DNA of 47,601 bases from Alphaproteobacteria bacterium (GTDB taxonomy: Bacteria > Pseudomonadota > Alphaproteobacteria > UBA7985 > JAUIBT01), in contig JAUIBT010000026.1 of assembly GCA_030428255.1 (NCBI GenBank), positions 1-47,601 of the forward strand, in the 5' to 3' direction. The notes beneath the pieces are model-generated. The model saw only the letters and a program-made list of their open reading frames with translations, ran no database searches and was not told where the DNA came from. A program made the position numbers and the translations under genes. Shown piece by piece: positions 12,071-14,701 of the stretch. Numbering within the stretch: position 1 is the stretch's first letter; each line of letters opens with the position of its first letter.

Positions 12071-12895
12071 CTAGCCCTTGGGCTCGGGGATCTCTGCCGG
12101 GCTGAGGCAGCCACCAAGGCGCACGGGTTCAATCACCTGAACCAGGCCGGTCTTGTCGTCGGTTTCGACAAAAACGCCGCTCAAGGTGGCCTCACCGGTG
12201 GCAGGCGTGAAGCGCTCGCTGGGTACCTTTTTCAAAAACCGCTTGATCGAGGCTTCGGGCTGAAAGCCGATCACCGAGTTATAGTCGCCGCACATGCCAA
12301 GATCGGTCTGAAAACCGGTGCCCTTGGGCAAGATGCGCGTGTCCGACGTGGGGATGTGGGTGTGGGTGCCAAAGACCAGCGACACCCGCCCGTCCAGATA
12401 CTGGCCCAGTGCGCCCTTTTCCGAGGTCGCTTCGGCGTGAACATCAACAATGATGGCCTGCACTGAGGCCCCCAGCCTGTGGCTGGCCAACAAGCGATCA
12501 AGCGCCCGGAAGGGATCGTCCATGGTGTCCATGAAGACCCGGCCCATAGCCTGCACCACCAAGACCTTGCGCTGATCGCGCAGAGTCAGCAGAGCGGCCC
12601 CGCTGCCAGGCGTGCCGTCTGGATAGTTCAAAGCCCGCACGATTCGCGGCTCTTTATCAATGATGGTCAGAATATCGCGTTGATCAAAGGCATGATCGCC
12701 CAGCGTCAGAACATCCACGCCTGATTTAAGCAGATCGCGGCATTGGTTGGCATTGATGCCAAAACCGCTAGCGGCGTTCTCGCCATTGACCACCACAAAA
12801 TCGAGTTTCCAGCGCTGTTTTAGTGCGGGCAAGGTCTGCATGACGGCGGTTCGCCCCGCCCGGCCCAGCACGTCGCCGAGACAAAGAATGCGCAT
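12071..12895 (-). CDS. TIGR00282/YmdB-family metallophosphoesterase
   Basis: A 274-residue binuclear metallophosphoesterase. Start placed at ATG 12895 (MRILCLGDVLGRAGR), where the family begins; upstream codons add a non-conserved stretch. Metal-binding positions visible are Asp8, Glu39 and Asn40 (NGENAASGFG), His68 (LGDHAFD), His153 (VDVHAEATSEK) and His178/His180 (FGTHTHIP). The residue before His68, Asn in Bacillus YmdB (N67), is Asp here. YmdB hydrolyses 2',3'-cyclic nucleotides and affects biofilm and RNA turnover in Bacillus. In many alphaproteobacteria this gene follows 5-formyl-THF cyclo-ligase on the same strand; here a foreign-looking gene on the other strand separates the two. Confidence 0.88.
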   Translation of the reverse strand: MRILCLGDVLGRAGRTAVMQTLPALKQRWKLDFVVVNGENAASGFGINANQCRDLLKSGVDVLTLGDHAFDQRDILTIIDKEPRIVRALNYPDGTPGSGAALLTLRDQRKVLVVQAMGRVFMDTMDDPFRALDRLLASHRLGASVQAIIVDVHAEATSEKGALGQYLDGRVSLVFGTHTHIPTSDTRILPKGTGFQTDLGMCGDYNSVIGFQPEASIKRFLKKVPSERFTPATGEATLSGVFVETDDKTGLVQVIEPVRLGGCLSPAEIPEPKG

Positions 12896-12954: not shown

Positions 12955-12984
12955 TTGTTGCGTTTTCGTATTATGTTCTATAAT
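12955..12984 (+). promoter_or_regulatory. Predicted sigma-70 promoter for the tail-fibre-like gene
   Basis: A perfect -10 hexamer TATAAT is at 12979-12984. An 18-bp spacer separates it from TTGTTG at 12955-12960 (four of six matches to the -35 consensus). The stretch is AT-rich compared with its surroundings. Predicted transcription would start near 12991, giving a leader of about 80 nt that contains the hairpin at 13033-13060. Confidence 0.55.
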
Positions 12985-13032
12985 TGTTCTGAACCCTTGG
13001 AGAAGTCCGCTCATATGAGCGCGTGCTCCGAC

Positions 13033-13060
13033 CGGGTTGGGGCGCGTTTCTCCCAACCCG
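13033..13060 (+). promoter_or_regulatory. 5' leader hairpin just before the ribosome site
   Basis: The perfect inverted repeat CGGGTTGGG/CCCAACCCG (13033-13041 and 13052-13060) has a 10-nt loop and ends immediately before the AAAAGGAG ribosome binding site of the gene at 13074. It could protect the mRNA 5' region, expose the ribosome site, or bind a regulator. It is not followed by a T-run, so it is unlikely to be a terminator. Confidence 0.6.
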
Positions 13061-13073
13061 AAAAGGAGCCCTT

Positions 13074-14054
13074 ATGGCACAATTTGATCCTCAAGGCCGT
13101 GTATATTGGGGCAAAAGCCCCAGCGATTTCCCGGCCGCGATTTGGTACGATACCTCTGCTTACCCCAACGTCTCGATGAAATTCAATGTTGGAGATGGCA
13201 GCTATCTGGAAATTGCGACCTTTGACGCCGGCGACCCCAACGGCAGCCTAGCTGTGAATGGCGCGTCGGTCGGCGCAGTTTCCTTGAGCCTTGACGACCT
13301 CAGCGACGTTTTGGCGGCCACCCCTACCAGCGGCGATCTCATCTCCTATGACGGCAGCCAATGGGTTGCAACCGCCAACACCGCAGCCGCGGCCTTGGGT
13401 GAATTGAGCGATGTTTCCACCGCTGGCGCGCTTGCCAACCAAGTCCTGACCTTCGACGGCACAAGCTGGAGCGCGCAGGCCATCTCGCAATCGCTTGACG
13501 CCCTAAGTGATGTCTCTGCTGCCGGAGCCACAGCAGGCAAAGTGTTGCGCCACGATGGCACGAACTGGGCACTAGGAAGCAGTGCCGACGTGCTGGGCGG
13601 CGGCCAAATCGCCGATCTTTCCAATGTGTCGGCTACCGTCCCCAATACCGGCGACATTTTGCAGTTTGACGGCACCAACTGGGCGCCGGCTGCCGATTCA
13701 GGCGGCGGCGCGGGTGGTCTTGGCACCTGGAGCGAGGTCGGCGCTGCTGGTGCAGCGGCTTGGACCAACGGTTCCAGCTATCTGCCAGGCACTTACGGCA
13801 ATGTTCGCTATCGCAAGGATGACCGCGGCGTGGTCGAGCTGGCAGGTATGGTGACCGGTGTGGCGCACCAACAATCCGTCTTCACCCTGCCGGTTGGTTT
13901 CCGCCCAGCAACCGATCAGTTCCTCAGCTCCATTTACACCGGCGGCTCGGGTGGCGTCTTCATCAACAGCAACAACGTTTTGATCTACAACGGCGCGATT
14001 ACAACCAGCCAGTGGACCAGCTTGTTCAACCTGCGTTTTGAAGCCGTGGCCTAA
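13074..14054 (+). CDS. Tail-fibre-like protein with four internal repeats
   Basis: A 326-residue protein. Start at ATG 13074 with AAAAGGAG seven bases upstream. After a short N-terminal domain (about 1-65, opening MAQFDPQGRVYWGKSPSDFP) come four copies of a roughly 27-residue unit of the form L-x-x-L-S-D-V-S ... G-x-x-L-x-F-D-G-T-x-W-x-A at about 73-99, 108-134, 141-166 and 179-204. Such units are known from phage tail fibres and related appendage proteins. A Gly-rich hinge (208-217) leads to a C-terminal domain (218-326) with RYRKDDRGVVELAGMVTG and FTLPVGFRPA, as in receptor-binding tips. No signal peptide, membrane segment or other phage gene is nearby. It stands alone on + between two housekeeping genes on -. 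Origin by horizontal transfer is inferred; its role (phage remnant, tailocin fibre or surface protein) is unknown. Confidence 0.7.
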   Translation: MAQFDPQGRVYWGKSPSDFPAAIWYDTSAYPNVSMKFNVGDGSYLEIATFDAGDPNGSLAVNGASVGAVSLSLDDLSDVLAATPTSGDLISYDGSQWVATANTAAAALGELSDVSTAGALANQVLTFDGTSWSAQAISQSLDALSDVSAAGATAGKVLRHDGTNWALGSSADVLGGGQIADLSNVSATVPNTGDILQFDGTNWAPAADSGGGAGGLGTWSEVGAAGAAAWTNGSSYLPGTYGNVRYRKDDRGVVELAGMVTGVAHQQSVFTLPVGFRPATDQFLSSIYTGGSGGVFINSNNVLIYNGAITTSQWTSLFNLRFEAVA

Positions 14055-14080: not shown

Positions 14081-14701
14081 CTACCAACGAAACTGGCGGC
14101 TGGGTGTCACCATGGCATCCAGCCGTTGGTCTGTCGGCTCGATCACGACGCGCTCGACCTCCTGGGCATCATAAGCCAGGCCGATGGCCAGCGTCGGTTG
14201 CTTAGCGCGTAGATCCTCCAGCGTGCGGTCATAGTAGCCGCCGCCATATCCCAAGCGATAGCCCAGTGCATCAAAGGCCAACAGAGGCACCAGCACCACT
14301 TGCGGTTCGACCAGAGCAGCGTTTTGGGGCGGTGTTTTGGCTCCAAAGGCACCTTCGACCAGCGCCGCCTCACCGTCAAAGCTGCGGAACTCTAGCCGCA
14401 CATCGGGGCCCGGCACAATCGGCAAGCACAGGGCGTGGCCTTCAAACTGCAAGCGGCTGATCAAGGCGCGCGGATCCAGCTCAGTGCGGATCGGCCAATA
14501 GCCTGAAATGCGCAGGCTTTGAGGCTGGCTGTGGCCGCTGGCTTGGGCCAAAGCTTGCTGCTCCAACAGCCAGTCGTCGATCAAGGCCACCACCGGATCG
14601 ATGATCGCCAGCGACGCCGCAGACGCTTGGCCGCTGTGAGCCGCCTTGCGCCGCGCGAATTGTTGTTGGCGCAGGGCTTGTTTGTCGTCTGCTCGGCTCA
14701 T
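14081..14701 (-). CDS. 5-formyltetrahydrofolate cyclo-ligase
   Basis: A 206-residue enzyme that converts 5-formyl-THF to 5,10-methenyl-THF using ATP. The hallmark LGYGGGYYDRTL (nucleotide/folate site) lies near residue 150-161, after the VVLVPLLAFD strand. The N-terminal RRKAAHSG and the middle RISGYWPIRTELDP fit the family. ATG at 14701 has GAAGGG eight bases upstream. It could feed one-carbon units that also arise from the folate-linked demethylating dehydrogenase at 2177. In many bacteria the 6S RNA gene is next to this gene; no 6S-like sequence was recognised in the 139 nt upstream. Confidence 0.92.
   Translation of the reverse strand: MSRADDKQALRQQQFARRKAAHSGQASAASLAIIDPVVALIDDWLLEQQALAQASGHSQPQSLRISGYWPIRTELDPRALISRLQFEGHALCLPIVPGPDVRLEFRSFDGEAALVEGAFGAKTPPQNAALVEPQVVLVPLLAFDALGYRLGYGGGYYDRTLEDLRAKQPTLAIGLAYDAQEVERVVIEPTDQRLDAMVTPSRQFRW

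Follow-up and report, generated by a model that had tools for sequence, protein, structure and literature searches.

The fiber gene and its insertion site

The window that we analyzed, a 47,601-nt stretch of contig JAUIBT010000026.1 from an alphaproteobacterial genome, carries an orphan phage-fiber-type gene at positions 13074 to 14054. It is the lone plus-strand gene between two minus-strand genes, a YmdB-family gene on the left (12071 to 12895) and the 5-formyl-THF cyclo-ligase (5-FCL) gene on the right (14081 to 14701). The frame is intact, with 326 codons for a 326-aa protein and a stop at 14054. It remains open upstream to a GTG at 13023, and the ATG at 13074 is the favored start, since a ribosome-binding site (AGGAG, 13064 to 13068, plus strand) sits before it and is kept in each of the three species sequenced from the genus (this genome, G001, and G002).

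The N-terminal domain (~67 aa; 13074 to 13274, plus strand) contains no recognized phage tail-attachment domain, and searching phage records and IMG/VR with it gave no match. Residues 68 to 210 (13275 to 13703, plus strand) comprise four degenerate repeats of ~34 aa, LxxLSDV...DGxxW, with each unit ending in DGxxW. These repeats matched PHROG 9729, “tail fiber protein,” in four stretches of a profile search (E = 4.6e-16), which together with the intact frame bears out the initial annotation of a lone four-repeat gene of phage-fiber type between YmdB and 5-FCL. The repeat also occurs in the fiber of a G002 prophage on contig C68 (54% over 24 aa; E = 6e-4); none of the fibers of the prophages found here resembles the orphan fiber over its length. 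A Pfam CBM_5_12 match on one repeat fell under the cutoff and was taken as a DGxxW look-alike.

The C-terminal tip (~109 aa; 13725 to 14051, plus strand) is predicted with low to medium confidence to be a beta-sandwich and shares 33 to 37% identity with phage tail and minor tail proteins. Its monomer model (pLDDT 64) had weak matches to phage fibers and receptor-binding proteins (Z of 4 to 7), and because adaptin and adenovirus fiber heads also matched in that range, the fold gives only mild support for a phage type. The monomer model of the whole fiber was uninformative (pLDDT 45). Searches of IMG/VR with the tip found one siphovirus-like contig, and those with the whole fiber or its N terminus found no relative. 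No fiber relatives were found among the plasmids searched, a PDB sequence search gave nothing convincing, and a defense-system library held nothing for the fiber. Neither a signal peptide nor a chaperone gene was seen on inspection.

Comparison of the flanks with outgroup genomes points to YmdB as the ancestral partner of 5-FCL. The two had been described as commonly adjacent, and of 11 outgroup loci in which each gene could be located, 10 had them separated by −4 to 44 bp. One of these, from the same order (L130), shows a 4-bp overlap (−4 bp); the exception had a gap of 727 bp (L132). In the window the gap is 1,185 bp, compared with a pair that abuts or nearly abuts in the outgroups, so a fiber gene appears to have been inserted into a directly adjacent pair, most likely in the ancestor of the genus. 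The fiber was found between YmdB and 5-FCL in all three species. Synteny places the G002 copy at the orthologous site; in G001, which is 86% complete, the copy is split over two contigs, with the N-terminal part adjoining YmdB on one and the C-terminal part adjoining 5-FCL on the other. All three genus genomes are draft assemblies, and at least two are metagenome bins. No fiber homologue was detected in 58 other relatives searched. As the initial annotation had noted, the gene has no phage neighbors in the flanks within the window, and neither phage genes beside it nor a complete prophage, a case which that annotation had also raised, was present at the site in any of the three species.

Operator, leader, and selection

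A predicted LexA operator, GTTC-TATAATT-GTTC, lies upstream of the gene (12975 to 12989, plus strand) and is a perfect match to GTTC-N7-GTTC, the alphaproteobacterial LexA operator (PMC3323433). Both half-sites are identical in all three species (GTTCTATAATTGTTC in this genome and G001, GTTCCTTAATTGTTC in G002), and noncoding DNA farther upstream has diverged among them. The motif was calibrated on lexA, which is preceded at ~60 bp by GTTCTATCTTAGTTC, identical in all three species; it also precedes ssb in the genus. A scan of this genome found 55 sites in 3.5 Mb, a density at which only ~1 gene in 600 should have a box in the 100 bp before its start. Inside the operator is a −10 hexamer, TATAAT (12979 to 12984, plus strand), which reads CTTAAT in G002. 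The gene had been credited with a near-consensus promoter; the TATAAT is indeed there, but a sigma-70 scan found no −35 element at a spacing of 16 to 18 nt, and the surrounding operator had been overlooked. Given the lack of a −35 at normal spacing, the promoter is, on its sequence, better read as an SOS promoter. Across this genome the 55 occurrences of GTTCN7GTTC compare with 341 of its backward control, an apparent depletion that perhaps reflects avoidance outside true operators; base-order bias is also possible.

The structured leader described previously was recovered as two plus-strand hairpins, the first at 13008 to 13021 and the second at 13033 to 13060 (GGGTTGGG ... CCCAACCC), directly before the ribosome-binding site. 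Both stems are kept in the three species, and the whole leader folds mildly better than shuffled sequences (z = −2.0).

Parts of the fiber have evolved at different rates (dN/dS of 0.05 to 0.27 overall). The first 79 residues are 96% identical between this genome and G001 (N-terminal dN/dS of 0.045). The tip is the fastest-evolving part, with dN/dS of 0.26 to 0.27 between this genome and G001 or G002 and 0.12 between G001 and G002 (dS of 0.5 to 1.1), and it diverges faster than the genes flanking the fiber, as a receptor-binding end would. Nearest relatives differ by part, with this genome and G001 closest in the N-terminal part and G001 and G002 closest in the tip; this discordance may reflect recombination, although the two G001 halves sit on separate contigs of a binned metagenome. 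The number of repeats also differs (4 in this genome and 17 in G002, with 7 or more in G001), and with near-identical repeats the counts may be wrong in short-read assemblies. The idea of a modular receptor-binding cassette, put forward previously, is in keeping with the variable repeat number and fast tip but is weakly supported, since the same fiber occupies the site in all three species.

Judged by these substitution rates, the fiber gene is maintained rather than decaying; its dN/dS and conservation disfavor a decaying prophage remnant. The initial annotation had also considered that the gene might prove fixed and conserved as an ordinary cytoplasmic protein. It is fixed and conserved, but as a phage-type fiber under an SOS-type operator. 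The proposal of a phage adhesin exapted into a housekeeping pair is supported by the phage-fiber domains, by purifying selection, by an apparent insertion that predates the split of the three species, and by the lack of a prophage at this locus in any of them. The gene is thus neither an artifact nor an ordinary cytoplasmic gene but a domesticated phage fiber with an SOS-type operator, fixed in the genus.

A second orphan module and the search for a particle

A second orphan module behind a LexA box is a cassette of a CHAP-domain endolysin, an SNase-type nuclease, and a 113-aa two-helix protein in which inspection found two hydrophobic stretches. Each of the three species has it at an orthologous site (L049:9912-11220, which is C28:89911-91219 of this genome; L112:306-1657; and L109:9203-10520), in conserved chromosomal surroundings and with a LexA box ~20 bp before the CHAP gene in each. 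In this genome the box preceding the CHAP endolysin gene, at C28:89911, reads GTTCTATCTATGTTC. Kindred cassettes are present in prophages of this genome (C4 and C39) and of G002 (C59 and C68), beside a LydA-type holin and tail genes, and since prophages of the genus carry the cassette in their tail and lysis region, it is phage derived. Comparisons between species indicate purifying selection on the cassette genes (dN/dS of 0.05 to 0.19, with several dS values saturated). Fiber and cassette share a distribution: each occurs in 3/3 species of this genus and in 0/8 other members of the order searched. The initial annotation had suggested a tailocin encoded in pieces; the lysis cassette, as a second SOS-box orphan module, would fit a particle of that kind, but no structural cluster shared across the genus was detected.

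Profile searches for GTA_TIM, the HK97 portal, and the HK97 capsid detected none of these in the three genus genomes; in Caulobacter, the positive control, all three were detected. A P2-like tail tube and tape measure were found by profile search on C4 and C39 of this genome and C59 of G002, and none were found in G001 (86% complete). The P2-like contractile-tail cluster on C4 (L108:5915-20000 plus L113) is interpreted as a prophage because terminase-, portal-, protease-, and capsid-type genes, assigned by gene order and sequence rather than by profile, are contiguous with it. The C39 cluster (L107) is a second P2-like tail piece that is cut by contig ends and has transposase-like genes at its ends. 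A search with the PF04984 sheath profile gave no match and so missed the P2-like sheath that hmmscan recovers on C4 (E = 5.6e-4). Family searches can therefore miss divergent relatives, and “absent” is to be read as not detected. No structural phage gene lay behind a strict LexA box at the sites inspected among the 55 boxes of this genome, and we found no structural cluster common to the genus; the phage-tail clusters recovered vary from one species to the next and are read as prophages, though the piece on C39 may be headless and tailocin-like.

LexA-type boxes in these genomes also adjoin genes of other kinds. A fast-evolving family of 300- to 320-aa proteins without a Pfam match lies beside such boxes at L050:10750-12554, L092:125-1138, L054:7228-8409, and L053:3811-5711. 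At L050 the family gene is followed by small membrane proteins, and the arrangement looks like SOS-induced bacteriocin and immunity genes; other parts of the genome hold what appear to be degenerate copies. In all three species, a family of ~180-aa proteins with a Gly-rich C-terminal region, candidate SOS-induced bacteriocins, starts ~57 nt after LexA boxes (L040, left of 1501; L085; L081; and L078, left of 1501 and shorter). Proteins with a serum amyloid A domain (PF00277; E of ~1e-19) likewise adjoin LexA-type boxes (L094, 140 aa, left of the box at 1501; L087, 112 aa, right of the box at 1501), and their genes are followed by one for a small membrane protein with conserved cysteines.

Possible roles of a putatively SOS-controlled orphan fiber

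Our preferred reading, to which we give a probability of about one-half, is that the gene encodes a captured phage receptor-binding fiber that is induced by the SOS response, freed by a matching lysis cassette, and most likely carried on an SOS-induced phage-type particle. The genus ancestor would have captured a phage tail-fiber gene into the 5-FCL–YmdB pair and placed it under the direct control of LexA. Cleavage of LexA after DNA damage would switch on both the fiber gene and the cassette of CHAP endolysin, SNase, and two-helix protein, and the induced cells would lyse, setting the fiber free. The N-terminal domain would attach to a structure of phage type, with the repeats serving as a shaft of adjustable length and the tip binding a surface glycan. 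The particle may be the tail of a resident prophage or of a kind outside the profiles used. LexA binding, induction, lysis, trimer formation, and receptor binding are inferred from sequence, and the particle most of all. A possible but less probable form of the same idea is a dispersed, host-owned, SOS-triggered system in which fiber and exit step are supplied in trans to an unrecognized particle or to any resident prophage.

The layout has parallels elsewhere. The gene transfer agent of Rhodobacter capsulatus (RcGTA) has at least 24 genes spread over five loci (PMC11409702), and its tail fiber is rcc00171 (PMC10218006). Like the system described here it is alphaproteobacterial and has its fiber and its endolysin/holin lysis loci apart from the structural genes, but GTA_TIM and the HK97 capsid and portal were not detected in this genus, so that RcGTA is the best-known parallel in layout, not in membership. 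R-type tailocins use SOS-induced, phage-derived fibers that set their target range (reviewed in PMC10598620). Their fibers are linked to sheath, tube, and baseplate genes and usually to a chaperone, whereas the orphan fiber, similarly phage derived and with SOS control predicted from sequence, stands alone. Phage tail fibers of the PHROG 9729 type share its repeat unit and beta-sandwich tip domain; the orphan differs in having its own LexA-operator promoter, a fixed host site, its own N-terminal domain, and no phage neighbors. SOS-induced colicins with lysis genes combine direct LexA control of a released protein with a lysis function. The control logic is alike, but the orphan is a fiber rather than a toxin and has no immunity gene. 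No prior description of an orphan fiber system was found in the literature searched.

Three other explanations were weighed against a fiber carried on a particle. The fiber may act on its own, with lysis freeing trimeric fibers that bind a surface glycan and serve to decoy phages, to block the receptors of competitors, or as a matrix adhesin. No genus-wide particle genes were found, both orphan modules carry LexA boxes, and other SOS-box genes here resemble released bacteriocin-type proteins, all of which would suit a free fiber, but the N-terminal domain is conserved and differs from shaft and tip, which points to a docking partner, and we know of no precedent for a free fiber as a selected trait. 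We consider this unlikely. We are similarly doubtful that the fiber is one piece of an SOS-induced tailocin- or GTA-like element scattered over the genome, with a main cluster of a family beyond the reach of the profiles used. The scattered fiber and lysis loci of RcGTA provide a precedent, and LexA sites are predicted in the promoter of the GTA cluster of Dinoroseobacter shibae (PMC6473078). However, GTA_TIM and the HK97 capsid and portal went undetected, and none of the strict LexA boxes inspected (55 listed) precedes a structural phage gene.

Least probable, and already disfavored, is that an ancient prophage left the fiber gene behind as cargo, that neutral persistence or recombination with incoming phages has preserved it, and that its LexA-like motif is due to chance. 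The tip groups unlike the N-terminal part, as recombination would give, and GTTCN7GTTC also arises by chance, as its five occurrences in the window illustrate. Against this, the gene is under purifying selection at a dS of ~1 with sequenced copies intact in all three species, the operator half-sites and leader are kept while DNA farther upstream has diverged, and a chance box so close to a given start is expected for only about 1 gene in 600.

Domesticated phage parts usually form linked clusters, whereas in this genus the fiber and the lysis cassette are unlinked. Host-owned phage parts are known; what is of interest here is that fiber and lysis functions are kept apart from any recognizable particle. 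That two unlinked modules both carry LexA boxes and are both fixed in the genus suggests that hosts can keep receptor binding and release apart from the particle, and scanning LexA boxes for orphan phage genes offers a way to spot further pieces.
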